Origin: Ammonifex degensii KC4
GTDB lineage: Bacteria; Bacillota; Desulfotomaculia; Desulfotomaculales; Ammonificaceae
DNA length: 64,000 bases
Reading direction: 5' to 3'
Assembly (NCBI RefSeq): GCF_000024605.1
Contig: NC_013385.1
Location: 987,501-1,051,500, forward strand
Below the pieces are notes generated by a model that searched no databases, was not told the origin of the DNA, and saw only the letters and a list, made by a program, of their open reading frames with translations. Made by a program: the position numbers and the translations under genes. Shown here in pieces: positions 418-56,487 of the stretch (the first letter of the stretch is position 1; each line of letters opens with the position of its first letter).

Positions 418-1218
418 GTGGTCAATGTGGCCGTCTTTGATCTGGTCGGCCCCTTCGCCCACTTCCGCAAATACTACACCAACTCTTCTTCGCTTTCTTA
501 CGCCTTCCCACCCCGGACGGCGCTTATGGGAACGGTGGCGGCTGTCTTAGGCTGGGAGCGCGACAGCTATTACGAGAAGCTGGGGCTTAGTGAGGCCCGC
601 TTCGCGGTGGTAATCAAAGTCCCGGTCCGGCGCCTCATCCAGACCGTGAACTACATTCGCACCAAAGAAGAAGACCTCAACCGGTTAAGAAAGCTGGAGG
701 CCGTGAAGGGTACCCAGGTGCCTCTGGAGCTCCTTTTGCCCGGCGGCACGGCCTCCTCCCTTTGCTTCCGGGTGTACTTTGCTCACCGCGACGACCAAGT
801 GACCCGGGAGCTGGCGGAGAGGCTGGCCGCCGGCCGATCCTACTTTCCCCTTTACCTGGGGCTGACCGAATTTATCGCTCAAGCCCGCTTGGTTGACTTT
901 AAACCGCCGGACGAAATAATCCCTGCCGGTCAAGAAGTAGAACTCCATTCGGTGCTGGCAGCTGACTACCTCCGGCGGCCCGTGCTTAGAGGGGAAGTGG
1001 CCCTTAACCGGGAGCGGGCACCCCAGTCCTTTGGGGCAGGGCGGAAGCTCATGCCGCCTAGAAGCTACATCTACGAAATGCAGGCCCGCCCCTGGCGGGC
1101 GGAGCTTCTGATCCCCGCCTACTCTTTCTTTCTTCCTTCCGGGAAGGAAACGGTGGCCTTTATGGAGGGAGAGCTATGGCCTTCTTCGCCCACTGTGACC
1201 GCGAAGGAGAGCGCATAA
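418..1218 (+). CDS. cas5: Cas5 (Hmari/Cas5h-like) Cascade subunit
   Basis: 266-aa RAMP protein starting at GTG 418 with the AAGGGAG Shine-Dalgarno at 402-408. The N-terminal motif FDLVGPFAHFRKYYTNSS (residues 7-24) followed by FPPRTALMGT is the signature of the Cas5h family, which caps the 5' handle of the crRNA in type I-B Cascade. A glycine-rich stretch (FGAGRKLMPPRSY) lies in the C-terminal third. The 3' end overlaps the cas3 start by 43 nt, so the two are translationally coupled. Only the long-gene frame carries these motifs; the antisense frames here are shadows. Confidence 0.88.
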   Translation: MVNVAVFDLVGPFAHFRKYYTNSSSLSYAFPPRTALMGTVAAVLGWERDSYYEKLGLSEARFAVVIKVPVRRLIQTVNYIRTKEEDLNRLRKLEAVKGTQVPLELLLPGGTASSLCFRVYFAHRDDQVTRELAERLAAGRSYFPLYLGLTEFIAQARLVDFKPPDEIIPAGQEVELHSVLAADYLRRPVLRGEVALNRERAPQSFGAGRKLMPPRSYIYEMQARPWRAELLIPAYSFFLPSGKETVAFMEGELWPSSPTVTAKESA

Positions 1219-3641
1219 AGCGCCGTTATCGCCTAGACGCCCACCTGGCCCTGGTGGCGGCCGAAAGCTACACCTCTTTGGCCCGGCTTCCCCGCTATCA
1301 AAACCTCCTGCCTCTGGCCGCCACCGTGGGCCTAGCCCATGATTTCGGTAAATATACTTCTTATTTCCAGGACTACCTTTTGACTCAAAGGATCAATCCT
1401 TACAAAGAGCACGCTTTCATCTCCGGCCTCTGGGCTACCTACCTTGCTGCCCGGCAGGGGGCGGGGCCTCTGGAACAACTGGCGGCCTTCATGGCCGTGC
1501 TCTGGCACCACCGCGACCTGGACAATCTCGACCGCTACCTGGCGTCGCGCCGCGAAATGGAGGATATAACTTCTTTAGACCCCGACAAGTACCGGCGCCT
1601 GGAGGTAGTGGAGAAGCAGGTAGAAGATCTCCGGCAAAACATAGAAAAGGTGGGGGCTTCCCTTGCTTCTGCTGCCCGGCACCTCGCCCGTCTTCTTACG
1701 CGGCGCGGCCTTACTCCCCCTCCTTTTCTGACGCAGGACTGGTGCCAGTGCTTAGAAGAGTTTCTTGGCTCCTGGCAAGAGGTCTACATTTCCCTCTACC
1801 GGCACTGGCGCAAGTTTGAAAGGCAGGAACCTTCCCTTTCCCCTTATTTCAATGTGGTCCTCCTCTTCTCCGCCCTTATCGATGCCGACAAGCGGCACAG
1901 TGCCCGCGTGCGCGAAGTTAAGAGGCCGGAACTCCCCTCTAATCTGGTCTACATCTATAAAGAAAGGAAATTTGCCGGAGGCGTGCCTTTTGGGATCAAC
2001 GCTTTACGAGGAAAAATCTTTCGCCACGCCGCCGAAAGAATGGCCTGTGCCCCTCTTTCCCAGCGCTTTTTTACCCTGACGGCCCCCACCGGCAGCGGCA
2101 AAACTCTGACTGTAATCAATGCTGCCCTCATCCTTCGTCGGCGCCTGCAGGAAGCTTACGGCTTTTCTCCCCGGATTATATACGCCCTTCCCTTCACCAG
2201 CATCATCGACCAGACCTACCAGGTCCTCTACGAGCTTATGGAGGAGACCCTGCCCGGTTTTGCTTCCGCTCCTTCGGTTTACCTGCTCAAGCATCATCAC
2301 CTGGCGGAAATATCCTATAAGGATCCGGAGGACGAAGACCCCCGCCGCTTCGACGAAGCCATGCTCCTCATTGAGAGCTGGCAGAGCGAAGTGGTGGTTA
2401 CCACCTTCGTACAACTCCTTCACACCTTTATCGGCTACCGAAATCGGATGCTCAAAAAATTCTGCCACCTGGGTCGCTCCATCATCATTATGGACGAAGT
2501 GCAGAACATTCCTGTGGAATACTGGCCGCTGGTCACCGAAGTCTTGAAGCGGGCAGCGGAAGAGCTTGATCTGCGCCTCATCCTCATGACGGCTACACGC
2601 CCGGAGTGGTTCGAGCCGGGAGAAGCCCTGGAGCTGGCGGGAGAGCCGGAGGATATCGAGCGCTACTTCAAGATGCTCGACCGCGTCCGCCTGCTGGTCG
2701 AACCCGGACAGTACCGCGTGGCAGAAGCGGCCGAGCTTTTTGCCCGGCGCTATGATCCCAGCCGATCGCACCTGGTGGTACTGAACACCATCCGGAACTC
2801 CGTAGACTTCTACCACTACCTGAAAGATCTCTTGCCGGAGGGAACCCCTCTTTACTACCTTTCCACCAACATCGTGCCGGCCGAGCGAGAGAAGCGGATA
2901 GAAGCCCTGCGCACGGCCTTGCACCGGGGAGAGAAGCCGGTTCTCGTTTCTACCCAGGTGGTGGAAGCGGGAGTGGACCTAGACTTCGACGTAGCCTGGC
3001 GGGACATAGGGCCTGTAGATGCGGTAGTTCAGGTGGCGGGGCGCTGCAACCGCAACTTCAAGAGAGATAAGGGAGATGTTTACCTACTCAACTTGGTAGA
3101 CGAACAAGGCCACTTTCCGGCCGTCCGCGTCTACGGGGCCATTCACATAAAGGGCGCCCGGGAGTTTTTCTCCGGCCGTCCGGAGTTCCCAGAAGCGGAA
3201 TTCCACTCGCTGGTGGAGAACTTTTTCTCTTTTGTCAGGGCCCGGAAAGATCCGAGCGCAAGTGGCACAATTTTGAAAGCCATGAAGGAATTGCGGTTCA
3301 AGGGGGACGGGGAAGAGAAAGGCGTGGCGGGCTTTCAGCTCATAAAGGATCTACCCAACCACATTGAGGTTTTCGTGGCCCTTGACTCCAAAGCCGAGGA
3401 AGTATGGGAAGCCTACCAGCAGGAAGTGGTAAACGCGCCCGACCGCCGTTCGCGCTGGGAAGCCTTTTACCGGATCAAGCGTGACTTCAGCCGCTACATC
3501 ATCTCTGTTCCTGTTAGATCCCTGGCTGGCAAAGTAGACACTTCCAAAGCTCTGCCCTATATACCCCCCTACCTGGTGGAAGAGCTTTACGATCCAGAAA
3601 CGGGCTTCAAGCGGGTGGACGAAGGGGCGGTGATAATATGA
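1176..3641 (+). CDS. cas3: Cas3 HD nuclease-helicase
   Basis: 821-aa fusion of an HD nuclease and a superfamily 2 helicase, the ssDNA-degrading motor recruited by type I Cascade. HD residues: H23, H55-D56, H79, H111-H112. Helicase: Walker A TAPTGSGKT near 302-310, Walker B DEVQ at 440-443, motif III LMTATRP, VVEAGVDLDFD near 596 and QVAGRCNR near 620. All key residues appear present, so the enzyme should be active. The ATG start at 1176 follows GGAGGGAGAG inside the end of cas5, and the stop overlaps cas4 by 4 nt (ATGA). Length fits the type I-A/I-B HD-helicase fusion. Confidence 0.95.
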   Translation: MAFFAHCDREGERIKRRYRLDAHLALVAAESYTSLARLPRYQNLLPLAATVGLAHDFGKYTSYFQDYLLTQRINPYKEHAFISGLWATYLAARQGAGPLEQLAAFMAVLWHHRDLDNLDRYLASRREMEDITSLDPDKYRRLEVVEKQVEDLRQNIEKVGASLASAARHLARLLTRRGLTPPPFLTQDWCQCLEEFLGSWQEVYISLYRHWRKFERQEPSLSPYFNVVLLFSALIDADKRHSARVREVKRPELPSNLVYIYKERKFAGGVPFGINALRGKIFRHAAERMACAPLSQRFFTLTAPTGSGKTLTVINAALILRRRLQEAYGFSPRIIYALPFTSIIDQTYQVLYELMEETLPGFASAPSVYLLKHHHLAEISYKDPEDEDPRRFDEAMLLIESWQSEVVVTTFVQLLHTFIGYRNRMLKKFCHLGRSIIIMDEVQNIPVEYWPLVTEVLKRAAEELDLRLILMTATRPEWFEPGEALELAGEPEDIERYFKMLDRVRLLVEPGQYRVAEAAELFARRYDPSRSHLVVLNTIRNSVDFYHYLKDLLPEGTPLYYLSTNIVPAEREKRIEALRTALHRGEKPVLVSTQVVEAGVDLDFDVAWRDIGPVDAVVQVAGRCNRNFKRDKGDVYLLNLVDEQGHFPAVRVYGAIHIKGAREFFSGRPEFPEAEFHSLVENFFSFVRARKDPSASGTILKAMKELRFKGDGEEKGVAGFQLIKDLPNHIEVFVALDSKAEEVWEAYQQEVVNAPDRRSRWEAFYRIKRDFSRYIISVPVRSLAGKVDTSKALPYIPPYLVEELYDPETGFKRVDEGAVII

Positions 3642-4186
3642 TGGAGGAAATTTTGGCATTTGAAAGTAAACCCTCTCCCGATTACCCTTCCTCTCCGAAG
3701 GTCATTGGGAGCTACGTCCAGGCTTTCCTCATCTGTCCCCGGCAGGTCTGGCTCATGTCCCGCCAGATCTGCCCGGACGAAGACCACGAGCTTTTGCAGA
3801 TCGGGCGGCTCATTCAAAGCCAAAGCTACGCCCGCGAACGTAAAGAGGTGCACATTGAGCACCTGGCCCTGGATCTCGTTCGCCGCGCGGGCAAAAACTT
3901 CGTGGTGGCCGAGGTCAAAAAGAGCTCCCGCGCCGCCGAAGCGGCCCGGATGCAACTGGCCTTTTACCTTTACGAACTCAAGCAGATGGGCCTGGAGGCC
4001 GAAGGGGAGCTCCTTTTTCCGGAAGAGAGGAGGAAGGAGTATCTAGTGCTGACGCCGGAGCTGGAAGCAAAGATAGTCAAGATGAAGGAAGATATAGTCC
4101 AGATCATAGCTCGCCCGATTCCTCCTGCTCCGGCGCGCACTCGCTTCTGCGGTAAGTGCGCCTACGCCGAATTTTGCTGGGCATGA
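3638..4186 (+). CDS. cas4: Cas4 RecB-like Fe-S nuclease
   Basis: 182-aa Cas4, which trims prespacers and sets PAM and orientation during spacer acquisition. Four cysteines suited to a 4Fe-4S cluster are C33, C171, C174 and C180. The RecB-type nuclease core is D79 followed by E92-V-K94. The ATG overlaps the cas3 stop. cas1 and cas2 normally follow cas4 in type I-B operons. Here the gene is followed at once by a hairpin, a leader and the array, so the integrase must be encoded outside the window or the locus no longer adapts by itself. Confidence 0.9.
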   Translation: MMEEILAFESKPSPDYPSSPKVIGSYVQAFLICPRQVWLMSRQICPDEDHELLQIGRLIQSQSYARERKEVHIEHLALDLVRRAGKNFVVAEVKKSSRAAEAARMQLAFYLYELKQMGLEAEGELLFPEERRKEYLVLTPELEAKIVKMKEDIVQIIARPIPPAPARTRFCGKCAYAEFCWA

Positions 4187-4190
4187 AAAT

Positions 4191-4234
4191 GTCGTCGACC
4201 TCCGGTAGTGCAAAAACCCCTGGAGGTCGACGAC
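4191..4234. repeat. Perfect 13-bp inverted repeat between cas4 and leader
   Basis: GTCGTCGACCTCC at 4191-4203 is the exact reverse complement of 4222-4234, with an 18-nt loop. It begins 4 bp after the cas4 stop. There is no T-tract right after it, so it is not a textbook intrinsic terminator. It could stop or protect the cas mRNA, or insulate the cas operon from the CRISPR promoter. Confidence 0.7.
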
Positions 4235-4377: not shown

Positions 4378-6335
4378 GTTTGTAGCCTACCTATGAGGGA
4401 TTGAAACCCGCCCATAGGGCCGGGGGTCTTCCCGGCGTTGATAGTTTGTAGCCTACCTATGAGGGATTGAAACAACATGCTACTTCTTCCCCCTTACCAC
4501 CTTTCCAATGTTTGTAGCCTACCTATGAGGGATTGAAACAAGTGCAACGCATTTCCCGCCGTCCAGGCCCCTGTAGTTTGTAGCCTACCTATGAGGGATT
4601 GAAACGCCATGAAGACGCGGTTCCTGTGCACCGCCACCAGGTTTGTAGCCTACCTATGAGGGATTGAAACGACATTCTGATGAGTCCTTCAGGGCGCGAG
4701 TAGACGGTTTGTAGCCTACCTATGAGGGATTGAAACCTCTTCCACTAGCCGCCATTCCATAGCGGCTAGTGCGTTTGTAGCCTACCTATGAGGGATTGAA
4801 ACCGGCACAGCAGCGCTCCCCGCTTGACCCTGCGCCGGTTTGTAGCCTACCTATGAGGGATTGAAACCCTTCCACCCGCCGAAGACGAAGAGCGGCAGGC
4901 GCAGTTTGTAGCCTACCTATGAGGGATTGAAACATAAGGTTGCCGTTCGCATCCCTAATGGTAAGCAACAGTTTGTAGCCTACCTATGAGGGATTGAAAC
5001 AGTATTCCGGCTATCGCCCCCGTACTGTCACCACCTCGTTTGTAGCCTACCTATGAGGGATTGAAACTTAGGCTAACGGAAAAGTTACCTTTCTTATCTA
5101 GTATGTTTGTAGCCTACCTATGAGGGATTGAAACCTCTCTGCGCCGAGTGCGGCGCGAAGGTTGCGGTATGGTTTGTAGCCTACCTATGAGGGATTGAAA
5201 CGCGGGGGAGGTCCCTTCCCCACCGCGGCGGCCAACCCGGTTTGTAGCCTACCTATGAGGGATTGAAACGCTCGGCCAGCTGCTCGACCAACTGGGGATC
5301 AAGTTGTTTGTAGCCTACCTATGAGGGATTGAAACACATCTGCACGGGCGGAGTTATGCGCGGCACCTTTGTCGTTTGTAGCCTACCTATGAGGGATTGA
5401 AACCCCGCAGCGACGACAGAGACGTGTCCCTCGAAGAGCGTTTGTAGCCTACCTATGAGGGATTGAAACCTTTTTTCGCTACCGTGCCGGCCTTTTGGCC
5501 ATCTCGTTTGTAGCCTACCTATGAGGGATTGAAACTTCCCCCAGCCCCGCAGGTTCCAGAAGTGGGTGCGCGTTTGTAGCCTACCTATGAGGGATTGAAA
5601 CCTGACCACGCTGATGGAAGTCTTCTGGGAGTGCTTCAGGTTTGTAGCCTACCTATGAGGGATTGAAACGCCACAGGAGCACAAGCCGTACTCTTTCGGA
5701 ACAGGTTTGTAGCCTACCTATGAGGGATTGAAACAACGGGCCGGTCTCTCCGAGGGGTGGTTGATCGCGGTTTGTAGCCTACCTATGAGGGATTGAAACT
5801 CTTCCCGGGCGCGGCGCACCGGGTGGACGCGCTCCTGTTTGTAGCCTACCTATGAGGGATTGAAACAGATAGGCGACGGCGTGTTCCTGCGCCTGATGAA
5901 GGTTTGTAGCCTACCTATGAGGGATTGAAACAAGGGAGAAGGAGTTCCCGTTGCGCAGACAGGAGTGGGGTTTGTAGCCTACCTATGAGGGATTGAAACC
6001 CCTACTATTCCCACCACACCCACGACGTGACAGGCGCGTTTGTAGCCTACCTATGAGGGATTGAAACGTGTTCCCGGCAGGCTGCAGAAAGTGACGGGGT
6101 ACGGTTTGTAGCCTACCTATGAGGGATTGAAACCGGGTGTAGTCCACGCCGTTGACCGTCTCGATCACGGGTTTGTAGCCTACCTATGAGGGATTGAAAC
6201 GTAATGCTGGCATAAAGGCAGAGCAGGCGGGTACGACTGTTTGTAGCCTACCTATGAGGGATTGAAACACATCTCCTGGAGCCCTGTCCAGGGCGCGAGC
6301 TACTAGTTTGTAGCCTACCTATGAGGGATTGAAAC
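4378..6335 (+). CRISPR. CRISPR array 1: 30 repeats, 29 spacers
   Basis: Thirty identical 30-nt repeats beginning GTTTGTAGCC and ending GGGATTGAAAC, the first at 4378-4407 and the last at 6306-6335. Spacers are 35-38 nt. The repeat end ATTGAAAC is the usual 8-nt 5' handle of Cas6-processed crRNA and fixes the direction as rightward. No decayed repeat occurs inside the array. The repeat differs at only 3 of 30 positions (1, 17, 23) from that of array 2. The reverse-strand reading frames through the array (FQSLIGRLQT repeats) are artefacts of the repeat. Confidence 0.99.
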
Positions 6336-7407: not shown

Positions 7408-7437
7408 GTTTGTAGTCTACCTATGAGGGATTGAAGC
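7408..7437 (+). repeat. Solitary decayed CRISPR repeat
   Basis: A 30-nt copy of the array 1 repeat with two changes (T for C at position 9, G for A at position 29), lying 1072 bp beyond the last array repeat and 29 bp before the can2 start. Same orientation as the array. It is either the old leader-distal end of array 1, separated by insertion of the glycine-rich gene, or a retained Cas6 processing site in the 5' untranslated region of the type III-D operon. Confidence 0.95.
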
Positions 7438-7466
7438 ACAGGTCCTTTCTTTTCGGAGGGGTTCTT

Positions 7467-8594
7467 GTGTCGTACGCGATGGTCTGTTTGGTTAGCGAGG
7501 AAAGGATGCAGAACATTATTCCTGTGTTCCAGCGTGGTTTAGATATTAGCGAGGTTTACCTGATATGTTCTCGCGATGCCGAACAAGAAAATTCGCCCTT
7601 GCGGAGAGCTCTGCATGATCTCCAAGCTACCTTAGAGTCAGAAGCCAGCGTCAAGGTTAAAGTGTGGGATCAGTTCGTCGATGCTTACGACCCGGAAAGT
7701 GCTCGTCGAGTTGTATACGAGGCGATAAAGGACGCGCGGAAGAGAACTTCTGCTCAAGTGCTGGTTAATTTCACCGGAGGTACTAAGTGCATGTCTGTCG
7801 GAGCCTTCTTAGCCGCCCAGGATGTCGGCGTCCCCTGCCTTTACGTGGATACCGCCAATCTCCGCCTTATCCGGTATGATCCCGGAGCTTTATCTCTGGA
7901 ATCTCTTCCTTTTGATTTGGCGGGCCGTCTCACCGTTCCCATCTACCTCAGGTCTTACGGCAAGCTGGTGCACCTTCAGCCTCGCCAGCTATTACCTGCT
8001 GCTTTTGATTTTGCTCGAGATCTTTATACCCTCTGGCCTCAGCGGTTTTCCGTTATAGTCTCTTCCCTGGAAAAGTTCGCTAGAGCCATTAGCACCAAGC
8101 AAACTATGGTTGAGGCCGAGGGACTTAATGAGCAGCTGGTTAGTTTGCTTCTCAAATACGGGGCCATAAAACAAAGTGGAAACTATTGGGAAGTAGTCCC
8201 TGACTGGAAGCCGGTGCTCGGGGGGGGGAAGTGGCTTGAGGCCATGGTCTTTCTACTCCTGAAGGAGAGCGGTCACTTTGACGATATCGCCACCGGTATT
8301 TGTGTGGCCGGTCTGGAGAATGAACTCGACGTGGTGATGGTGCGGCACGGGCAACTGGCGGTCATTGAGTGTAAGATCGGAAGCCTAAAAGGGGCTCTTC
8401 CCAAAGTCAGGGCCGTGGCCACTGCGTTGGGCAGGTTCGCTCGGAGTTTCATAGTGACCAGCCAGCTTTCTGAGAAGATTCCTCCTGTTTACAAGGCGAG
8501 AGCCATTCATTATGGTGTGCGCGACATTGTTACTGCTGAAGACTTGCCTCGGGTAGCCGAAAAAGTCATCGCTGGCATGAGAGGTGGGAGATAA
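7467..8594 (+). CDS. can2: CARF-domain nuclease, Card1/Can2-like (DUF1887)
   Basis: 375-aa effector with an N-terminal CARF sensor (NFTGGTK, residues 101-107) and a C-terminal PD-(D/E)XK nuclease (E258 in KWLEAM, D288 in NELDVV, E301-C-K303). Card1/Can2 enzymes are switched on by cyclic tetra-adenylate and cut single-stranded nucleic acid or nick DNA; length matches the family (about 370). Start chosen at GTG 7467 behind GGAGGG; an upstream TTG at 7431 lies inside the decayed repeat and lacks a ribosome site. A run of nine G (8220-8228) lies just before catalytic E258 and could cause slippage frameshifts. It opens the type III-D operon. Confidence 0.85.
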   Translation: MSYAMVCLVSEERMQNIIPVFQRGLDISEVYLICSRDAEQENSPLRRALHDLQATLESEASVKVKVWDQFVDAYDPESARRVVYEAIKDARKRTSAQVLVNFTGGTKCMSVGAFLAAQDVGVPCLYVDTANLRLIRYDPGALSLESLPFDLAGRLTVPIYLRSYGKLVHLQPRQLLPAAFDFARDLYTLWPQRFSVIVSSLEKFARAISTKQTMVEAEGLNEQLVSLLLKYGAIKQSGNYWEVVPDWKPVLGGGKWLEAMVFLLLKESGHFDDIATGICVAGLENELDVVMVRHGQLAVIECKIGSLKGALPKVRAVATALGRFARSFIVTSQLSEKIPPVYKARAIHYGVRDIVTAEDLPRVAEKVIAGMRGGR

Positions 8595-8595
8595 G

Positions 8596-9891
8596 TTGCC
8601 GCCCAGAATTCTGGTCCTCTCGGTTGGAGGATCTTGTGCCCCCGTAGTTAATGCCTGTCGGGAGTACAGACCGGATTTCATTTACTTCTTTTGCTCCGGG
8701 GGTCCCAAAGGCAGTACGGTTGCGGTAGATGGAGAAGGAGATCCTTGCGGCGATTCCCGAACCATCAAGTGCCCGAAGTGCAAAACAGAAATACCTCTTG
8801 GCAACCCCAAAGGGGAATCTATCGTGCGGCAGTTACAGTTGCCGCCCGGATCGTACGAAAAAGTAGAAGTTGACGATCCGGATGACCTTGCCTCTTGCTA
8901 CCGCAAGCTGATTGAGCTGGAAAACCGGATAAGAGAACGTTTTGGTCCGGACGCAGAAGTAATTGCCAACTACACCGGTGGCACCAAGACTATGTCGGTA
9001 GCCCTAGCCTTGCTGGCAGCGTTGCGGGAGGGCTGGGACCTGTCCGTTAACATAGGGCCTCGGTTTGATCTGATCAAGGTGCGGGGCGGCGATCACGCCG
9101 TGTTTGCCGATAAGCAGGTGGTAGCTGCTGAGCTCTATCGGTCGCAGGCAGCCGAGTTTTTGCGCTCTTATGCCTACGATACGGCCGACAAAGTTCTGTC
9201 CCAGCTAACGACCAGATACCAGCTCTCTTCGGATTTAAGAGACCGCTTCCTCCGGATTCGCCGCCTGTGCCAAGCATTTTATGCCTGGGATGTTTTCGAC
9301 CACCGGAAGGCGCTCGAGCTCTTGCGCCTTGTAGGTGGGGAGAAGGTTGCTCCTTATATCGAAGCAGCTCTGGGGCTGGCCGGAGAAAAGAAAAAGGTTA
9401 CAGGCTATGAGCCGGTAATGGATCTTTTGCTCAATGCCGAGCGGCGGGCGGAGCAAGGCCGGTACGATGATGCGGTGGCCCGGCTTTACCGGGCCTTAGA
9501 GATGACCGCTCAGGTGCGCCTGCGGCAGGCGTGGAACTTGGATACCGGAAACCTCGCTCTAGATCGGCTGCCTCCGGAGTTACGGGATAAGTACCTTCCC
9601 TGGCAGGACGAAAAGGGGCGCATAAGGCTGGGGTTGGTGAAAAGCTTTGAGCTTTTGGCCGAACTCAACGATCCCGTCGGGCAGCTCTGGCGCCAGCAGG
9701 AGCCTAAGATGCGCAATGCTTTGGAGGCCAGAAATTCTTCTATTCTGGCTCACGGAACCGTCCCGCTAAGTGAGGCGAGCTACAGGCAGTATGGTTCGGT
9801 TATCGAAGGTTTCATCGAAGAAGTTTTTCAACTAACGGGCGTGAGATTGCCTCGCCGTCAGCTCCCACGCGAGGAACTGCTGGATATGTAA
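8596..9891 (+). CDS. CARF-HEPN ribonuclease, TIGR02710/Csm6-like
   Basis: 431-aa protein with a CARF domain (YTGGTKTMS at 126-134) and a C-terminal HEPN RNase motif R379-N-S-S-I-L-A-H386. A CxxC pair (C59, C62), with C51 nearby, forms a likely zinc-ribbon insertion in the CARF domain. Proteins of the TIGR02710 family are cyclic-oligoadenylate-activated RNases of type III systems. TTG 8596 follows GAGGTGGGAG; GTG 8584 is an alternative start overlapping can2. Together with can2 it gives the operon two different signal-activated effectors, one PD-(D/E)XK and one HEPN. Confidence 0.85.
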   Translation: MPPRILVLSVGGSCAPVVNACREYRPDFIYFFCSGGPKGSTVAVDGEGDPCGDSRTIKCPKCKTEIPLGNPKGESIVRQLQLPPGSYEKVEVDDPDDLASCYRKLIELENRIRERFGPDAEVIANYTGGTKTMSVALALLAALREGWDLSVNIGPRFDLIKVRGGDHAVFADKQVVAAELYRSQAAEFLRSYAYDTADKVLSQLTTRYQLSSDLRDRFLRIRRLCQAFYAWDVFDHRKALELLRLVGGEKVAPYIEAALGLAGEKKKVTGYEPVMDLLLNAERRAEQGRYDDAVARLYRALEMTAQVRLRQAWNLDTGNLALDRLPPELRDKYLPWQDEKGRIRLGLVKSFELLAELNDPVGQLWRQQEPKMRNALEARNSSILAHGTVPLSEASYRQYGSVIEGFIEEVFQLTGVRLPRRQLPREELLDM

Positions 9892-9904
9892 GGGGGTAAT
9901 CCTT

Positions 9905-12037
9905 TTGCTGGAATGGAAGGATATTTTTACTGGCCGCACGTACCATTTCACTGGAGAGGGCTTAAAGCGGGTTCGGAAGCACGTGGCCGGTTTGCTGGCC
10001 CAGAGGATTAAAGCTGGCTCCGGCTTGAAAGATGTGGCTGACAAAGCAGCTCGCTTCTGGGCTAAAGAGTATTATGAACTGGTTTTCCCCTTGCGTTTGG
10101 ATGCGCCGGAGGTAGAGAAGATAGACGGAAGCGTTAACTTCCGGAGCAGGAAACAAGACCCCGGTTTTCCTCCCATACTCCCGGCTCCCGGAAGCAGAGT
10201 TACGGAAACCCTTTTGGCCGATGCGGTGGTAATCCGGACGGCTCTCTTAAACCTTCTTCTGCGGCAGCGGAAGGTCGAGAAAGAACTCCTCAACGCGGTT
10301 CGGCTGGCTTCGCTCGTTTCCCCCCTGGCTGAAGAACTGGCGAAGCATCTTCTCTCTTGGCCGAAAGAGGTGGAGCTCCTCCTATCTGCTTTCCAGGGAA
10401 GAGCCCCCTTCCCCCGGGATGTCGACGGCGATCTGGTTCGGGCCGTGAGTGAGGCGGTCTTTTCTCCTCTTGAGGTCCAGAGCCTGCCGGATGAGTTAGG
10501 TGTAACTCTGGTTATAGGCGCGGTCCAGCGGGTTAAACAGTATGTTTTTGCCAGCCCGGGGCTCAACGAAATAAGGGGAGCATCCGCTTTGCTTGACGAG
10601 ATTACCGAAAGTCTGGAAAGGGATGTGGAGAGCGAGCTGGGTGTTGAGGTGCTTTTGCGTGCGGCGGGATCACGCTTAGAATTCTTGGTTCCCGACGAAG
10701 AAGAGGGCGAATACTGGCGGAAAAAAATCAAGCAGAGGTTCTTTGAGAGAACAGGAAGTAGCCTGGTGGCCACTGCCGCCAGCTCGGTGAAAATCAAAAA
10801 GCTCCTTACCGAGTTCCAGGAAGTGCTGCGTAGGGCGAACCGGGAATTAGAAAAAGAAAGAAATCTGGTTTTTCCGGTAGCGGGCGAAGCCCTTCCTTTT
10901 GAGGAGCGCTGTTCTATATGCAAAAAACGGGTGGCTGAGGGATGGTATCAGACACCAGAGAAGCAACTCGAGCCTGCTTGCCGTGTGTGTTACACCAAGC
11001 GGGAAAAAGGTAGAGAGTTAAGGTGTCGCATGGTGGAAAAGCTTGGGGAGGAAGTAGTGGACAGGGAGGTTTTTGTCCGCCTGGAACCGCCCGACTCCTT
11101 AAACGAACTTCCTCCCGAAAATCTGGCCCACAAGTGGGTAGCGGTGGTTTACGGGGACGGCAATAACTTTGGCGGGGTACTCCAGCAGAAGATCGATAAG
11201 CTAGCCTCTGCGTTACAGTGGACGCAGCGCATAAAGCGGGTTACCTGGAAAGCCGCAGCTCAGGCCTTAAGGGAAGCCATGAACAGTGAGGAGGCTTCTC
11301 GGGAGCTAAAACGTCTTCCCTTCCAGATGCTGCTTTTGGGAGGAGAAGATATCAGCCTTTTTGCCTGGGGACCGGTCGGGCTTCACTTTGCCCGTTATTT
11401 CGTGGAGCTTACCGATCGGGAGTTTGCTCCGGCTCAAGATGTCAAGGAACGCATCTCCTTTTCTCTGGGCGTGTTGGTGACCGACGAGAAAGCCCCCGTA
11501 TTCCGTACTCTTAACTTTACCGAAGAAGAGCTTCTCAAGTGGGCCAAGCGCGCGGCGCGCGAGCGAGGATACAAAAGAGGCGGGACAATTGCTTTCTTCC
11601 TGGCTCCTTCCGCCGATCAAATTCCCGGTGATCTGGAGAATTTCCTGCGTAGAGCCTTTTTGAAGCCGGGAAAGGTTATGAACCTCTGCCTTACCTTGCG
11701 TCCTCTGAGCGCAGAGGAACTGGGCTTCTTGATAGACAAGGCAAGGGAGCTCCGTTCTTACTCTGGTTCCCTCTTGCGCCTGGCAACGGCTTTTATCAAG
11801 GGAAGCCCGAAGGTAGCCACGCTCTTGTATCTTTACCAGAAAGGGCGCAAGAAAGAGAAGGAACTTTTTGATGAGCTCGAAAAAATAGAGAAAGTCCCGC
11901 CGACGCTTTGCGAGCTTATGTTCCCTACCTTCTTTAGCTCTGAGCGAAAGGTCTTTGGTACTGATGCGCAAAAGGAGGGTTCCTACCATTTTTCTGCGCT
12001 TGTTGATCTGGCGGAGTTGCTTAAGATCCTCGGTTAA
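9905..12037 (+). CDS. cas10: Cas10 large subunit, type III-D, HD-less, GGED palm
   Basis: 710-aa signature subunit of type III effector complexes. Palm 1 carries YVFASPGLNEIRGASAL (about 213-229), then a zinc finger (CSIC...CRVC, about 336-361). Palm 2 has VVYGDGNNFG (about 414) and the cyclase motif GGED at 479-482, where most Cas10 proteins have GGDD. The acidic pair is kept, so cyclic oligoadenylate synthesis is likely, as the two CARF neighbours imply. No HD nuclease motif is seen in the N-terminal 200 residues, so it should not cut DNA itself. TTG start behind AAGGGGG. Confidence 0.92.
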   Translation: MLEWKDIFTGRTYHFTGEGLKRVRKHVAGLLAQRIKAGSGLKDVADKAARFWAKEYYELVFPLRLDAPEVEKIDGSVNFRSRKQDPGFPPILPAPGSRVTETLLADAVVIRTALLNLLLRQRKVEKELLNAVRLASLVSPLAEELAKHLLSWPKEVELLLSAFQGRAPFPRDVDGDLVRAVSEAVFSPLEVQSLPDELGVTLVIGAVQRVKQYVFASPGLNEIRGASALLDEITESLERDVESELGVEVLLRAAGSRLEFLVPDEEEGEYWRKKIKQRFFERTGSSLVATAASSVKIKKLLTEFQEVLRRANRELEKERNLVFPVAGEALPFEERCSICKKRVAEGWYQTPEKQLEPACRVCYTKREKGRELRCRMVEKLGEEVVDREVFVRLEPPDSLNELPPENLAHKWVAVVYGDGNNFGGVLQQKIDKLASALQWTQRIKRVTWKAAAQALREAMNSEEASRELKRLPFQMLLLGGEDISLFAWGPVGLHFARYFVELTDREFAPAQDVKERISFSLGVLVTDEKAPVFRTLNFTEEELLKWAKRAARERGYKRGGTIAFFLAPSADQIPGDLENFLRRAFLKPGKVMNLCLTLRPLSAEELGFLIDKARELRSYSGSLLRLATAFIKGSPKVATLLYLYQKGRKKEKELFDELEKIEKVPPTLCELMFPTFFSSERKVFGTDAQKEGSYHFSALVDLAELLKILG

Positions 12038-12051
12038 AGGGGAGAGGTGCA

Positions 12052-12765
12052 TTGGGAAAGCTTTGGCTTCTGAAGCTGGAAATAGAATTTGAGGGCATGC
12101 TTCACATAGGCGGCACCGGTTCCCCGCAGCTTCTGGTAGACCGAACGGTGGTGCTAGATAAGGAAGGTTGGCCTTATCTTCCTGCTTCCACCGTGCGGGG
12201 GAGACTGCGGGCGTGCCTGGAAAGGCTCCTTAAAACTTTAAATCAGCCGGTTTGTTCTCCTCCTTATCCGGAGTTCATGTGCCCCCAGGGTTACCCGGAG
12301 GAGAATTACTGCCCGGCTTGCCGGCTCTTCGGCAGTCCCTGGCGCCAAGGAGCTTTGTATTTCAGGGATTTTGTGCTGGATCCAAAGCCTGGTGAGGCCG
12401 AGATTGCAGAACTTCGTTTAATCAGGACAGGTATAGGGATCGATCGCCGCCGGAACACGGTGGAAGAGGAGAGGCTCTTTTTCACGGAGGTAGTTTCTCC
12501 TTCTGCCGGGGAAAAGGAACTGCGTTTTGTCGGCGAGGTCGAGCTCAGGGAGGATGCCCCGGAACTCCTTGGCTGGCTCCTGGCTTCTTTGCGCCTTGTT
12601 ACCCACGTAGGCGGGCAGAAGAGCCGGGGTCTGGGGAGGGCGAGGATCGAGGTCAGCGAGATAAAGAGCTGGGATCCCGAAAGGGGCTGGGTCGCCGTAT
12701 CGGATGTGAAGCGGTTTGCTGAGGAGGTAATTGAGCATGCGCTGTCGGGTGCGGCTTTGCTTTGA
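12052..12765 (+). CDS. Cas7-like RAMP (Csm3-type) of the type III-D complex
   Basis: 237-aa RAMP backbone subunit. YLPASTVRGRLR near residue 43 is the conserved N-terminal RAMP motif. D30 (in LVDRTV) aligns by eye with the target-RNA-cleaving aspartate of Csm3. CPACRLFG (from C87) is the Cys-rich thumb/zinc site and GGQKSRGLGR the glycine-rich loop. TTG start behind GGGGAGAGG. The reading frame overlaps csx10 by 29 nt. The operon has four such Cas7 paralogues, as in III-D complexes with separate Cas7 subunits. Confidence 0.87.
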   Translation: MGKLWLLKLEIEFEGMLHIGGTGSPQLLVDRTVVLDKEGWPYLPASTVRGRLRACLERLLKTLNQPVCSPPYPEFMCPQGYPEENYCPACRLFGSPWRQGALYFRDFVLDPKPGEAEIAELRLIRTGIGIDRRRNTVEEERLFFTEVVSPSAGEKELRFVGEVELREDAPELLGWLLASLRLVTHVGGQKSRGLGRARIEVSEIKSWDPERGWVAVSDVKRFAEEVIEHALSGAALL

Positions 12766-13963
12766 AGGTTCCTGGCTTATTAGCAGGGGGGTGGCAGTAC
12801 AAAACGTAGTGCGGGGGCGCGATTACGTGCCCGGCAGTGCCTGGCGCGGCGCTCTGGCCGAGATGCTTCTCAGCGCCGGAAGGAGCGAAGCCGAACTGGC
12901 AGCGATTTTCAGCTCCGACGCGAGATTTGGCTTTCTTTATCCCGTACCGGCGGAGGAGGGGTGGGAGGGCTTCCCTCTTCCCTTGAGCGCCCGCAAATGT
13001 AAAGTCCAAGGGGGACTAGGTGACGGGAAGCACGGAGCCAGCGACTGGCTACTCCCCAACTTGCGCCGCTACCTGGACCTTAGGAGTGAAGCGCCCTTTG
13101 AATGTTCTGTATGCCGCGAGCGCTTAGAGCGCTACCGAGGGCTGGCCGCCCGCTCGCTTCGCGGGGAAGGGTACCGGGAGATAAAGATCGAGCGCTGTTG
13201 GCTTATGCGGGTGGGGTTGGACCGTCGTACGGAAACGGCAGCGGAAGGCATTCTTTACGCTCTGGATGCGGCCACGTGGCCCCACTTTTCTGGATGGTGG
13301 CAAGGAGCAGAGGAGGAGTTTTTGAAGCTTAGAGAAGCTCTTGCCGCCTGCCGTCCGCTTGTCGATGGGGGTTGGCCGGTATACCTGGGTACGGCAAAGG
13401 CCAGGGGGTTGGGAAAGGCTCTGTTAAGGCTGGACGAAGGAGAGAGTCCTTCCTTGCCTCCTCTGGAAGCGAGGCTGAATGACTTTCAGCGGCAACTCGG
13501 ACTCGGCAACGATCATCCCTATCTTTACTTCTCCCTCACCCTCCGCTCCCCCCTTTTGCTTCCGGGAGATGGAGGAAAACCTTGGGGGTGGGACGATGCC
13601 GGAGTGCTGACCAGGTATATAAGCACCGTGCCCTCAGGGCTTGAATATCTTCAAGAAGTTTCGGCGGTTGAATGGGAGACCTGGGAAGGCTGGTCGCAAG
13701 CTTGGGGCTTGCCTAAGCCGGTGGTGACGGCGGCGGTGCCGGGAAGCGTGCTGGTATACCAAGCGCCGCTGGCAGCAAAAGACGAGGTTCTGGCCTTTCT
13801 TCAGGAGATCGAGGAAAGGGGCTTGGGAGAGAAAACTGCTGAGGGTTGGGGAGAAGCGGTGGTGTGCGATCCTTTTCATCTCCATTTCGATGCAGACAAA
13901 ATTTCGGTGCGGACAGAGGAGGGGAAGGATGAGCTTCACGTATCGGCAGCTGGAGGAAATTAA
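12737..13963 (+). CDS. csx10: Csx10 (Cas5-like RAMP, type III-D marker)
   Basis: 408-aa protein with YVPGSAWRGALAEML near residue 33, a CxxC pair (CSVCRERL near 123), a GTAKARGLGKALLRL loop and a C-terminal GEKTAEGWGEAVV motif. This combination and the length fit Csx10, the Cas5-group subunit that defines subtype III-D and caps the crRNA 5' handle. ATG 12737 has AGGAGGT 8 nt upstream; an in-frame TTG six bases earlier is too close to that site. Overlaps both neighbours. Confidence 0.85.
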   Translation: MRCRVRLCFEGSWLISRGVAVQNVVRGRDYVPGSAWRGALAEMLLSAGRSEAELAAIFSSDARFGFLYPVPAEEGWEGFPLPLSARKCKVQGGLGDGKHGASDWLLPNLRRYLDLRSEAPFECSVCRERLERYRGLAARSLRGEGYREIKIERCWLMRVGLDRRTETAAEGILYALDAATWPHFSGWWQGAEEEFLKLREALAACRPLVDGGWPVYLGTAKARGLGKALLRLDEGESPSLPPLEARLNDFQRQLGLGNDHPYLYFSLTLRSPLLLPGDGGKPWGWDDAGVLTRYISTVPSGLEYLQEVSAVEWETWEGWSQAWGLPKPVVTAAVPGSVLVYQAPLAAKDEVLAFLQEIEERGLGEKTAEGWGEAVVCDPFHLHFDADKISVRTEEGKDELHVSAAGGN

Positions 13964-14315
13964 TGAAGAGCTGGTGGTCAAGGCGGAAGAGATTGTAAAG
14001 AAGATAAAAGGTCGGGTAGGGAAATCAGATGACACGGGGAGATCGCAGCTTTCGCGGGCCATCGAAGTGGCACGCAGCGCTAAATCTTTCAAAGTTTTTA
14101 ACAACTGGATGGCTTATCAGGCAAGCCGGCCGCAATCCAGCAAATTTTGGAAAGAGCTCGGACTTATCGATCACATCCGCGGAGTCATGCAGTCTCTGGA
14201 GAAGGATGAGCGGCTACCCGACAAGGCGGCAAAAGTAGAAGCATTGGTGCGCTTTTTAGGCTTTTTCCGGCGGGCCTTTATCGGGCGCGACTACTTAGGA
14301 GGGGATTGCAGTTGA
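13929..14315 (+). CDS. Csm2/Cas11-like small subunit
   Basis: 128-aa, mostly helical, charged protein placed between Csx10 and a Cas7 gene, where III-D operons carry the Csm2-like small subunit. ATG 13929 has GAGGGGAAGG upstream and lies inside the end of csx10. Helices around KVFNNWMAYQASR and KVEALVRFLGFFRRAF resemble the small-subunit bundle that lines the target RNA in the effector filament. Assignment is by position, size and helical character; sequence similarity in this family is weak. Confidence 0.7.
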   Translation: MSFTYRQLEEINEELVVKAEEIVKKIKGRVGKSDDTGRSQLSRAIEVARSAKSFKVFNNWMAYQASRPQSSKFWKELGLIDHIRGVMQSLEKDERLPDKAAKVEALVRFLGFFRRAFIGRDYLGGDCS

Positions 14316-15136
14316 ATTTAGAGGTCAGGCCTCCACTTTGGGATACCTTCACCAACAGGCTGATAATTCAAGGTAAATTGGTCTGCCAGACGGCCCTGCG
14401 CATAGGAGCGGGGAGCGACCCCCTCCTTCCCACGGCCAGTGACTTGCCCATACTACTTTTAAACGGCCAACCTTACATCCCCGGTTCCTCCCTGCGGGGG
14501 GTGCTCCGAAGCCACCTGGAGCGCCTGGTCCGGACCCTCGAGCCCAGCCCAGGGGGAGGGAAAGGAGCCTGCAACCCGGTGGACAAGAATGAGTGGTGCA
14601 TCAAGACCGAGGATATGAGAGAACTGCGCCAGAGCAAGAAGGATCTGGCTTTTAGGGTTTGGGATAAATCCTGCCGCATCTGCCGCCTTTTCGGCAGTCC
14701 TTGGCTGGCTTCCCGGGTGCGGGTAAGCGATCTCTTTTGCCTAGATGAAAATGTCAAGCCCCTGATAAGAGACGGGGTAGCCATAGACCGGGAAAAGGAA
14801 GCAGTGCGCAACAAGTTCGATTTCGAGGTCGTGCCTCCCGGTACCAGGTTCCGCCTGGAGCTGTTGGCCGAAAACCTTTCACCGGACGAGCTGGGACTCG
14901 TGTGGCTAGGTATCCGGGAGCTTCAGGAGGGCCGTATCCAGGTGGGGGGCTTTAAGGGGCGGGGTTTAGGTTTCGTGCGCCTGGAGAAGGTGCAGGTGCA
15001 CATGGTGGACGGAACCGATAGGGAGGCTTTGAAGAACTACATCACCCGAGGAGAAATGAGGCTCGTTGCTCCGGAGGAGCTTGAGCGGTGGCTTGAGAGC
15101 TTTTGGAACTCCTGCGGAGGTGGGAAGGGTGCATAG
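14306..15136 (+). CDS. Cas7-like RAMP of the type III-D complex (second copy)
   Basis: 276-aa RAMP with YIPGSSLRGVLRSHLERL near residue 57, CRICRLFGSPW (thumb Cys site) and GGFKGRGLGFVRLE. D46 (in TASDLPI) falls where Csm3-type enzymes keep the RNA-cleaving aspartate. Starts at TTG 14306 behind TAGGAGGGG, overlapping the small-subunit gene by 10 nt and the next Cas7 gene by 8 nt. It is closest to the next paralogue, with which it shares CRICRLFG/CYICRLFG and PGSS-RGVLRSH, so the two probably arose by tandem duplication. Confidence 0.87.
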   Translation: MQLNLEVRPPLWDTFTNRLIIQGKLVCQTALRIGAGSDPLLPTASDLPILLLNGQPYIPGSSLRGVLRSHLERLVRTLEPSPGGGKGACNPVDKNEWCIKTEDMRELRQSKKDLAFRVWDKSCRICRLFGSPWLASRVRVSDLFCLDENVKPLIRDGVAIDREKEAVRNKFDFEVVPPGTRFRLELLAENLSPDELGLVWLGIRELQEGRIQVGGFKGRGLGFVRLEKVQVHMVDGTDREALKNYITRGEMRLVAPEELERWLESFWNSCGGGKGA

Positions 15137-16025
15137 CCGCTTCTTCAACGAGGCCGTGTTCGAGCTCCTGCTTTACCCGGACACTCCCCTGCTGGTGAAG
15201 GCGGGAGGAGAAGGGGTGGAAGCACTGGACCCCACCTTACCGGACATGAGCTTTGTGCGTCTGAGGCAGGTTGGCGGCGAGGAAGTACCTTTTATCCCCG
15301 GTTCCTCTTTTCGCGGGGTTCTGCGCAGCCACGCCGAGCGCCTGGTGCGCTCGGTGAAAAAGGAAGAAGCCTGCGACCCTTTGAACCACAAGGAGAGGGA
15401 GAGTTGGAACTTAAAAACCGCCTGCCTGGTCAAGGACAAAGATAAGGGGCCCGAGGCCTACCGGAAAGTCTGCTACATCTGCCGTCTTTTCGGCACCACC
15501 GGTCTGGCCAGCCGGGTGCGGGTGGGCGACTTTTACCCGGAAAAGGAGCCGGTCTGCTCCACCCGCTACGGTGTGGCCATCGACCGGGTGACTGGAGCGG
15601 TGGCCAAGGGACCTTTTGAGATGGAAGTGGTCACCGACGGGAGTTTCCGGGGCACCATAACCCTGCGCAACTTCACTCTGGGCCAGTTCGGCCTTCTCTC
15701 GGCAGCCCTTCTGGATATAGGTGAAGGGCTGGTTCCCATAGGATTCGGCAAATCCCGGGGCCTCGGACGCGTCAGACTGGAAGTAAAGAGGCTTGCCATC
15801 TACACCCTTCGCTCCCCTGAAGGAGCTTTGTGGGGGGTGGGGGCTCTTTGTGAGGAAGAGGTCAGGAAGGAATTCAGGCTTCCTCCCGCCGAGAGAGAGC
15901 GGCTGGATCTGGGAGCAAAGGATGCGGCCAAGAAGGGTATCTATCATGTGTTGAGCGCTGCGGGCGAAGAAGCGGTAAGGTGGATGGAAAAAGCTGTCCC
16001 CCGCTGGTTGGAGGAGATAGCTTGA
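15129..16025 (+). CDS. Cas7-like RAMP of the type III-D complex (third copy)
   Basis: 298-aa RAMP starting at GTG 15129 behind GGAGGTGGGAAG; the open frame extends upstream without a ribosome site. Motifs: FIPGSSFRGVLRSHAERL near residue 58, CYICRLFGTTG and GFGKSRGLGRVRLE. D39 (LPDMSF) is the candidate target-RNA-cleaving residue. A C-terminal extension of about 60 residues (PPAERERLDLGAKDAAKKG) is not present in the second copy. The stop overlaps csx19 by 4 nt (TTGA). Confidence 0.87.
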   Translation: MHSRFFNEAVFELLLYPDTPLLVKAGGEGVEALDPTLPDMSFVRLRQVGGEEVPFIPGSSFRGVLRSHAERLVRSVKKEEACDPLNHKERESWNLKTACLVKDKDKGPEAYRKVCYICRLFGTTGLASRVRVGDFYPEKEPVCSTRYGVAIDRVTGAVAKGPFEMEVVTDGSFRGTITLRNFTLGQFGLLSAALLDIGEGLVPIGFGKSRGLGRVRLEVKRLAIYTLRSPEGALWGVGALCEEEVRKEFRLPPAERERLDLGAKDAAKKGIYHVLSAAGEEAVRWMEKAVPRWLEEIA

Positions 16026-16570
16026 AGGGCTGGTTGCTTCAGCTGCGAAAGGAACTGGTCAGCAGAGTTGCAGAAACCGACCTCTGGCCGGCGGGTGAAA
16101 CCTGGTGGTTTGGGTGGAACGAAGGAGAAGTTCGCCTGCCGACTCTTTTGAAGGATTGGAGGGAGGCGCTGGCCGAAAAGTGGGAAGTTTTCAGGATTTT
16201 CAGCCCCAGGGCCGAGCTGCGCCGGGAGCGCCGGGGGAAGCAGGTGGTTTTTTCCCTACTTGTGGAGGAAGAGGCCTATTCCGCCCTTCCTCCGGAGCTG
16301 AAAGGCAAGGGCGATTGGTTTCTGGTCGAGGAAGGATATCACCTCCTAGCGGGGGAACCTAGGGGAGGTCGGTGGGTTAAGACCCAGTATCCGCGGTATC
16401 TGGACTACGGAGTGGCGGGTGATGGTGACGCCTATGTGGTCGCCCGGGTGTACAAATACCGCGACCGGGGAAATCCTTCTTTTTCTTTGGTTCGCTACGC
16501 CGGCCTGGTTTTGGTGCCTAAAAAGGAGCGAAGTCAGGAGAAGTGGCAGCTGAAACCTTATGGAGGCTAA
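16022..16570 (+). CDS. csx19: Csx19-like subunit of the type III-D complex
   Basis: 182-aa protein starting at TTG 16022, coupled to the preceding Cas7 by a TTGA overlap and preceded by TTGGAGGAGATAG. It is rich in Trp and Tyr (ETWWFGWNEGEVRLPT near the N-terminus, KTQYPRYLDYGVAGDGDAYV in the second half). Position next to csx10/cas7 genes and the WFGW-type N-terminus fit Csx19 (TIGR03984), a III-D-specific subunit. The family call is from memory of its features and neighbourhood, not from a search. Confidence 0.6.
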   Translation: MKGWLLQLRKELVSRVAETDLWPAGETWWFGWNEGEVRLPTLLKDWREALAEKWEVFRIFSPRAELRRERRGKQVVFSLLVEEEAYSALPPELKGKGDWFLVEEGYHLLAGEPRGGRWVKTQYPRYLDYGVAGDGDAYVVARVYKYRDRGNPSFSLVRYAGLVLVPKKERSQEKWQLKPYGG

Positions 16571-16582
16571 GGAGGGAGAGAG

Positions 16583-17578
16583 GTGGAGCAGAAGCCTTAT
16601 GATTTCGTTCCCTTTCCCGACCACTGCGTCCGTGCCCTTTGTCCCGGACATCACCGGTTCGTTTCTTATACCGGAACTATGGAATGCGAGCTCTACTTAC
16701 TGCGCCCTTTGCAGGTAGGCTCAGGGTTTTCGGACTTTGTTAAGACCAGGCAAGGAGCAGAAGTATTGGCTGCCTGCCATGCGGGCGTGGAAAGGGAAGA
16801 TAAGCGGCTTTACGTGATACCTGGATCTTCGCTCAAAGGAGTTTTGCGCAACCTGGTAGAGGCCGTCTCCTATTCTTGTCTGAGTGTAATGGACAATAAG
16901 GTGCGGGCTTTTATCCCGGTTAAGCTTAACCGTTGTACCAGAGTGGACGAGCTTTGCCCTGCTTGCCGCATTTTCGGCATGACCGGCCCTAGGGGCGAAA
17001 GTTATCAGGGCAATGTGCAGATTCCCGACGTTATGATGCCGGAAGGGACCAAAGCGGTTCTTGCTCGCATCCCCATCTTGTGGACCCCGGCTCGGGCTAA
17101 AAACGGTTTGCCCCGGAGCTATCTGGGCGGAAAAGGAGAGGCCAGGGGCAGAAAGTTTTACTACCACGGGAAAAAGGCTTCGGGGCCGGATGCGCGGGTG
17201 GTCTTAAAAGAAGGGCAATCGTTCAAAGCTACGCTTCATTTTAATAATCTCGATGCCGCTTTGATGGGCGTGTTGCTCACGGCCATGGGGTTGCATCCGG
17301 TCCACCGGTTTCCGGTGAAAATGGGGGCGGGCAAGCCCGTGGGAATGGGAAGCGTAGAAATCAAGCTTTTATCTGTGACTCTTCGGAAGGCGGAGGCGGG
17401 GCGGCTGGGATCCGGAGTTTACCTTCTTGAGGGGCAGGAGCTGGAGAGATGGGTGGAAGAGTGCTGCCGCGAAGCGGAAAAGCAGGGTCTTCTTTTCTAC
17501 GAGGGGTTGGAGAGAGTGGCTGCCGTTCTTGCGCGGGAGGAGCTGGATCGGCGGGAGATGCCGGGAGGTCCTTATTGA
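16583..17578 (+). CDS. Cas7/Csm5-like RAMP of the type III-D complex (fourth copy)
   Basis: 331-aa RAMP starting at GTG 16583 behind GGAGGGAGAG. YVIPGSSLKGVLRNLVEA lies near residue 77, CPACRIFGMTG near 124, and GAGKPVGMGSVEIK in the C-terminal half. At the position of the Csm3 catalytic aspartate I see a cysteine-histidine stretch (AACHAGVE), so this copy probably does not cleave RNA and may cap the 3' end of the filament as Csm5 does. It carries an insertion with a basic loop (RAKNGLPRSYLGGKGEARG) not found in the other copies. Confidence 0.8.
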   Translation: MEQKPYDFVPFPDHCVRALCPGHHRFVSYTGTMECELYLLRPLQVGSGFSDFVKTRQGAEVLAACHAGVEREDKRLYVIPGSSLKGVLRNLVEAVSYSCLSVMDNKVRAFIPVKLNRCTRVDELCPACRIFGMTGPRGESYQGNVQIPDVMMPEGTKAVLARIPILWTPARAKNGLPRSYLGGKGEARGRKFYYHGKKASGPDARVVLKEGQSFKATLHFNNLDAALMGVLLTAMGLHPVHRFPVKMGAGKPVGMGSVEIKLLSVTLRKAEAGRLGSGVYLLEGQELERWVEECCREAEKQGLLFYEGLERVAAVLAREELDRREMPGGPY

Positions 17579-55255: not shown

Positions 55256-55395
55256 GCTTAAGTCTTTTAACTATTGACAGGAGCCTTGCGCTGTGCTAAC
55301 TTAGAGACAGCGAGAAATTCAAGGCTTCCGGCGAACGGTCGTTTGCGGCGAAGGCGCCATTACGCCGGGGGCCGGATCTCAAGCCCACAAAACGG
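55251..55395 (+). promoter_or_regulatory. CRISPR array 2 leader (145 nt)
   Basis: Same length and layout as the array 1 leader, with scattered substitutions, most in the 50 nt before the final GCCCACAAAACGG. Its start is shared with the IS tip (ACA). Confidence 0.88.
55274..55302 (+). promoter_or_regulatory. Promoter of CRISPR array 2
   Basis: TTGACA (55274-55279), 17-nt spacer, TAACTT (55297-55302), identical hexamers and spacing to array 1. Confidence 0.75.
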
Positions 55396-56487
55396 ATTTG
55401 TAGCCTACCTACGAGGGGTTGAAACATGAACTCTCCTAGCGTCATGGCTTCCACTACCTTCGGATTTGTAGCCTACCTACGAGGGGTTGAAACAGTACTG
55501 AAGAAGGCGGCGCAAGCCCCTTCTCTCCAGATTTGTAGCCTACCTACGAGGGGTTGAAACTACCTACTGCACCCCAGGCTGGGAAGCCCGGGTGCATTTG
55601 TAGCCTACCTACGAGGGGTTGAAACGGTCGTGGACCCCTTTGCGGGCAGCGGAGCTTTCGGCATTTGTAGCCTACCTACGAGGGGTTGAAACCCGATGTA
55701 CCCCCAACGGAGGAAGTCCTGAGGTTCTTATTTGTAGCCTACCTACGAGGGGTTGAAACGGAAAGCGTATGTCTAACGCCCCCCGGATGGTGGAGATTTG
55801 TAGCCTACCTACGAGGGGTTGAAACAGGATATCCCCCGGCTGCACCGGTTCCAGGCAGAAAATTTGTAGCCTACCTACGAGGGGTTGAAACCTGTATACT
55901 TGAGCCACCGCAAGAGGGACTATGTAAAATTTGTAGCCTACCTACGAGGGGTTGAAATGTGGAACGGAGCACCAGCGCCAGGAAGTTCAGTTCCATTTGT
56001 AGCCTACCTACGAGGGGTTGAAACCTTATACCACCCCTTTCGTAAAACGCCTGCAGATCCGATTTGTAGCCTACCTACGAGGGGTTGAAACTGGGCCTGC
56101 CGTGCTTTAGCTCCGCCACCGCCTCCCATTTGTAGCCTACCTACGAGGGGTTGAAACTGCCGCGTCGCCAAGCATGCCGTGAATCGCCACCCACATTTGT
56201 AGCCTACCTACGAGGGGTTGAAACAACTGCACGAGGATGTTGTTGATAAGACTGAAGGGAATTTGTAGCCTACCTACGAGGGGTTGAAACTCAAGGTCTT
56301 CTACTCGGACGGCAATTCTCCCTCTCATTTGTAGCCTACCTACGAGGGGTTGAAACGGGAAGCGCACGTCCAGCGCCCCCCGGACGGTGACGATTTGTAG
56401 CCTACCTACGAGGGGTTGAAACTCCGCCCATGCCGGTCTTCGTCCCCGCCAACACGGATTTATAGCCTGCCGGCAGTCGAGTTGCAC
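55396..56487 (+). CRISPR. CRISPR array 2: 16 repeats plus one decayed terminal repeat
   Basis: Repeats of 30 nt beginning ATTTGTAGCC and ending GGGGTTGAAAC, first at 55396-55425, sixteenth at 56393-56422. The ninth has T for the last C (55958). A strongly decayed terminal copy lies at 56458-56487 (ATTTATAGCCTGCC...). Sixteen spacers of 35-38 nt. No cas gene is adjacent; processing must use the Cas6 serving array 1, whose repeat differs at 3 positions. Spacer 4 encodes a methyltransferase motif, and spacers 6 and 15 are related to each other. Confidence 0.99.

Follow-up and report, generated by a model that had tools for sequence, protein, structure and literature searches.

Introduction

Repeated sampling of one site by CRISPR spacers is described for Legionella pneumophila, in which two spacer pairs are directed at overlapping sites of the element LME-1; the newer spacer matches perfectly, and the older one has a mismatched PAM or seed (PMC5071653). 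That report describes spacers of the same or overlapping sequence within single arrays as well. In the type I-B system of Clostridioides difficile, nearly all new spacers have a length of 34–40 bp, and most come from sites with a CCN PAM (PMC8406132). Furthermore, a strand bias towards crRNAs complementary to mRNA is reported for types I-B and III (PMC8482600).

Repeated sampling of one site in diverging invaders is a known and fairly common pattern, and a new instance of it, which points to recurrent attack by related invaders, is presented here. The DNA analyzed is a stretch of 64 kb (hereafter the window; G000:C1:987501-1051500) from a genome of 2.16 Mb in two contigs. Spacers 6 and 15 of the second CRISPR array in the window are interpreted, with a probability of roughly 0.83, as two captures of the same site of one foreign protein-coding gene, made from two related mobile elements.

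CRISPR Arrays and cas Genes

The genome contains five arrays of one repeat family, two in the window and three elsewhere. The array that carries the pair and its presumed leader are as follows.

55336..55395, plus strand: presumed leader end, with terminal bases ...CCCACAAAACGG, like those before the other four arrays
55396..56487, plus strand: CRISPR array 2, 16 repeats of 30 nt (ATTTGTAGCCTACCTACGAGGGGTTGAAAC) and 16 spacers

Fifteen of the 16 repeats of array 2 are identical, and the remaining copy has a terminal T. The repeats span 55396-56422 and are followed by the final spacer and a degenerate terminal repeat at 56458-56487, in which 17 of the 30 positions are kept. With near-identical 30-nt repeats and unique spacers of one length class (35–38 nt), array 2 has the properties that define a CRISPR. 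When the 60 bases preceding each array were compared by eye, a similar upstream stretch ending in AAACGG was found in five of five arrays. Because this common stretch lies on the left of array 2 and the degenerate repeat at its right end, the leader is placed on the left; spacers were therefore acquired from the left, and spacer 15 is older than spacer 6. An IS481-like transposase (below the NCBIfam cut-off) is encoded on the minus strand at 53847-55127 of the window, just upstream of this leader.

The window also contains cas genes, but these do not adjoin array 2; two cas1 genes are located elsewhere in the genome, outside the window. The other features of the window are listed below.

418..4186, plus strand: type I-B-like cas genes, namely Cas5 (418-1218), Cas3 (1176-3641) and Cas4 (3638-4186)
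4378..6335, plus strand: CRISPR array 1, 30 repeats (GTTTGTAGCCTACCTATGAGGGATTGAAAC) of the same family as those of array 2, and 29 spacers
7431..17578, plus strand: type III-D-like set, comprising CARF proteins (TIGR02710 type), Cas10/Csm1, and Csx10 and Csx7 RAMP proteins

The match to Cas10/Csm1 in the type III-D-like set is weak, and several of the scores in this set are under NCBIfam's own cut-offs. A lone repeat-like copy (GTTTGTAGTCTACCTATGAGGGATTGAAGC) is located at 7408-7437 of the window, 1.1 kb past array 1 and just before the type III-D-like genes. The largest array of the genome (L036), which is not in the window, contains two overlong spacers of roughly fourfold the usual length, one of 137 nt at L036:1641-1777 and one of 139 nt at L036:3005-3143 (G000:C1:927040-927176 and 928404-928542, respectively). 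Both are open throughout in at least one frame, and the reverse frame of the 137-nt spacer, RKWAEVEDEIARILDKFTLQYDIGRWCRSIPGLGPVLTAGLMALI, appears transposase-like by eye; a second full copy of either was not found in the genome itself.

A further spacer of array 2 has a recognizable peptide reading.

55626..55662, plus strand: spacer 4 of array 2, forward frame 2 reading VVDPFAGSGAFG, with similar stretches in ORFs of relatives

We take VVDPFAGSGAFG to be a DNA-methylase-like motif, and the loci of relatives that were retrieved with spacer 4 by BLAST contain DPFAG[SG]G stretches that are DNA-methylase-like. A spacer of L036 at G000:C1:927338 reads FAGGGVRR, which is also DNA-methylase-like; when shifted by 11 bases, the two spacers agree at 19 of 26 positions, a likeness no greater than background.

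Likeness of Spacers 6 and 15

The two spacers under consideration are as follows.

55760..55795, plus strand: spacer 6, the more recent member, reading STIRGALDIRF in reverse frame 2
56357..56392, plus strand: spacer 15, the earlier member, reading VTVRGALDVRF in reverse frame 2

Both spacers are 36 nt long and are separated by eight others. Aligned on one strand with an offset of 0 at both ends, they agree at 28 of 36 positions, the changes being at spacer positions 3, 9, 11, 15, 17, 29, 34 and 35. Re-parsing of the array and alignment confirmed the coordinates, the spacer numbering and the 28/36 match given in a preliminary description of this DNA, and the peptides that it read on the reverse strand are as stated there. 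For comparison with the other spacers of the five arrays, 143 of the 145 were aligned all against all on both strands with shifts allowed (the two overlong ones were left out), and each pair was scored as matches minus mismatches. The pair of spacers 6 and 15 ranks first among the 143 with a score of 20, and the next pair has a score of 13. In 259 sets simulated by a first-order Markov model with the same lengths and dinucleotide make-up and shifts of up to 8 bases, the best score was 16. Array 2 thus contains two non-identical spacers that are alike beyond chance on one strand, which is the sign of repeated sampling.

Two trivial origins of the likeness, coincidence and the duplication of one spacer followed by mutation of the copy, are together very improbable. 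No simulated set reached the score of the pair, which speaks against chance. Duplicate spacers do occur in relatives, but a duplicated copy would have accumulated 8 changes in 36 spacer positions against only 1 in 480 in the 16 surrounding repeats (Fisher p 2e-9).

The distribution of the differences also bears on the nature of the site. Both spacers are open in three of the six frames, of which that of STIRGALDIRF and VTVRGALDVRF shows the fewest and mildest changes, with two silent, two conservative and one radical codon change. When the positions of these same eight changes in spacer 6 were randomized and the best of the open frames among the six was scored each time, an equally or more conservative frame was obtained in 0.47% of 20,000 trials, a test whose basis is eight changes only. 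The differences between the spacers therefore resemble, moderately well, the kind found between homologous coding sequences. Taken together, the score above simulation, the conservative frame and the improbability of a drifted copy make the likeness an indication of same-site capture. Since the frame lies on the opposite strand, the strand of both spacers would be complementary to the presumed mRNA, and the crRNAs of spacers 6 and 15 could consequently serve not only a type I system but also the type III-like genes of the window, such complementarity being a requirement of type III effectors.

Search for the Source

The preliminary description had proposed that one spot of a conserved gene was sampled on the same strand and in the same register from two related, diverged invaders, which it took to be drifting viruses, with primed acquisition from an imperfect match as an alternative. 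The single coding site, the two diverged sources and the common strand and register are upheld by the score against simulation and by the frame test; the viral origin and priming gained no support. The search of spacers and peptides that it called for yielded no convincing source in phages, plasmids or IMG/VR, nor was a convincing natural source found in the genome itself, GTDB contigs or relatives.

At the peptide level, degenerate patterns matched only spacers 6 and 15 themselves in the genome, and only this genome among 398 genomes of the phylum. With two mismatches allowed, five of 113 genomes of the class had a match, namely this genome and four others, and the matches in the latter were set aside, their frames being weak or unrelated. 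The core peptide pattern had no match in 112 genomes of the order. In the GTDB contigs, a single match was found, in antisense orientation close to the beginning of a 568-aa ORF that presumably encodes a CoA-disulfide-reductase-like protein by our own reading, and was dropped as chance. The peptide patterns gave no match in IMG/VR, and a looser pattern gave two, TLRGALDMRF (L037) and TLSGALDVRF (L038), both in frame in long ORFs. Judged by eye, these ORFs could encode tail or structural proteins, and they serve as leads only; by an uncomputed estimate, several chance matches are expected for the looser pattern.

At the nucleotide level, BLAST of the spacers and of the whole of array 2 against phages and plasmids gave weak partial matches only, as did BLAST of L036 against phages. 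The search of the whole array against the 113 genomes was swamped by repeats of other arrays; when the 16 spacers alone were searched against relatives, short matches were obtained, of which 11 loci were inspected, and those retrieved with spacer 15 were ORFs without a common identity.

Recurrence in Related Genomes

A comparable pair is present in a genome of the same genus (G322), which has 102 spacers in two arrays. Its spacers L067:1320 and L067:2715, 36 and 37 nt long, have the same start, are equal at 26 of 36 positions, and read GKSYHALRRAL and GKSYHALRKAL in a frame opposite to the spacer strand. When the spacers of both genomes were pooled (246 before and 241 after removal of duplicates) and ranked as peptide pairs, the two pairs described, one from each genome, came first and second with scores of 53 and 47; the next three real pairs scored 44, 43 and 42, and one shuffled set reached 39.

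Another spacer of G322, L066:585, reads VFTGGVGSGKSY on its own strand, and this peptide could be the preceding part of what looks like a P-loop in the G322 pair. The degenerate pattern of this P-loop had no match in IMG/VR; in the 113 genomes it was found in the G322 array itself and at six other loci, five of which were inspected and comprised one ATPase-like ORF, one CRISPR spacer of genome G276 (GKSYHAL) and three chance-like matches. For a 19-residue composite of the P-loop, the sole Pfam match was a weak one to CobU (E 0.15). Spacers L066:585, L067:1320 and L067:2715 of G322 and a spacer of L089 in G276 cover parts of (VFTGGVGS)GKSYHAL(RKAL), the two genomes belonging to different families. 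From these peptides, a P-loop ATPase of some foreign element seems to be a recurrent target.

For a wider comparison, the arrays of twelve relatives were split into 943 spacers, which with 144 from this genome and 102 from G322 gave 1189 spacers from 14 genomes. Eleven of these relatives have a similar repeat and were chosen for their many repeat matches, and G276, whose repeat differs, was added by way of the P-loop pattern, so that the sample is not random; 16 of the 18 stretches fetched were split, and two short ones (L090 and L092) were left out. The search was limited to shifts of up to 15 bases, and two G300 pairs distinguished solely by a spacer duplication entered the count as one. Above the simulated background, 13 diverged same-strand pairs and four opposite-strand pairs were found in the 14 genomes. 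The handle-side end is exactly common in five of the 13 (this genome, G322, G300, G428 and G468), for which evenly distributed shifts would predict 0.4–0.8. In the remaining eight, offsets of 1 to 15 bases are present. Exact register is accordingly not the rule, as shifted and opposite-strand pairs exist, and the shared handle-side ends agree with a capture anchored there, as by a PAM.

Identical pairs were also observed. In G322 (L066:1313 and L067:522) and G431 (L081:3950 and L082:94), the handle-side end is common and the lengths differ by one base, a difference for which two captures are a simpler explanation than copying. Many other identical pairs in the relatives look like duplications within arrays. 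In L076 of G402, a run of eight spacers at 3766-4228 is repeated exactly at 4294-4756, which is a segmental duplication.

Proposed Course of the Two Captures

On the interpretation of spacers 6 and 15 as two captures of one site, a possible course of events can be proposed. Spacer 15 was captured first and spacer 6 later, after the eight spacers between them, the sources being two related elements about 78% identical at the sampled site and probably viral or plasmid-borne. On both occasions, the capture machinery would have placed the handle-side end at an identical base of the site, most likely because a PAM beside this end was conserved in both elements. Spacer 6 may then have refreshed an immunity that drift had weakened: the older and the newer spacer differ from each other by 8 mismatches, and that at spacer position 3 would presumably fall within the seed of a type I system.

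The two sources could alternatively have been paralogues within one element, or members of one mixed infection, instead of elements met in separate attacks. Nothing in the sequence contradicts such an origin, but it is rather improbable, as the eight intervening spacers imply captures separate in time. In addition, spacer 15 has G or C where spacer 6 has A or T at seven of the eight differing positions (two-sided p 0.07), which hints at, but does not prove, sources with differing base composition.

Primed acquisition would be one form of repeated capture, distinguished only by the cause of the second event: the crRNA of spacer 15 would have bound the drifted invader imperfectly and so triggered the uptake of spacer 6 from it. 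The type I-B-like cas genes would allow it, and the Legionella authors name priming as a possible interpretation of their overlapping pairs, in which a perfect newer spacer accompanies a mismatched older one (PMC5071653). It nevertheless appears unlikely here: priming would be expected to add further spacers around the site, and the array has a single spacer known to match there. Priming is also unneeded: with assumed numbers of 5,000 or 12,500 usable sites, 144 spacers would give 2.1 or 0.8 same-site pairs, respectively, so that repeat sampling is likely where the set of usable sites is limited.

It is a tentative and rather doubtful further step to regard the array as the record of an update, in which the machinery returned to the exact site whose older spacer drift had outrun. 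If this were true, the paired spacers of the clade would record how an invader gene changed between two attacks, and the common end of such pairs would reveal the anchor of capture without a known protospacer. Diverged spacer pairs in any case hint, without a sequenced invader, at a conserved peptide stretch of an element and at the order of attacks, and when pooled across related arrays they suggest that one spacer end tends to be fixed at capture. For the window itself, the pair mainly confirms ordinary adaptive immunity.

Comparison with Known Systems

As in C. difficile, type I-B-like genes with Cas4 are present, spacer lengths are similar (mostly 35–38 nt, against 34–40 bp), and PAM-directed capture by type I-B would produce a fixed handle-side end (PMC8406132). 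In contrast to that system, the two cas1 genes lie outside the window, and a PAM is suggested only indirectly, by the shared spacer end. The co-occurrence of type I-B-like and type III-like genes, with both crRNAs predicted to be complementary to mRNA, recalls the strand bias described in PMC8482600; unlike in that report, a single site is concerned here, and the methylase reading of spacer 4 is on its own strand, in the opposite orientation. The Legionella system is of type I-C, and its newer spacers perfectly match a known element (PMC5071653), whereas the present pair diverges at 8 of 36 positions and is aligned at both ends. Like the LME-1 pairs of that report, it would nonetheless consist of an older and a newer spacer from a single strain that are directed at overlapping sites in one type of invader.
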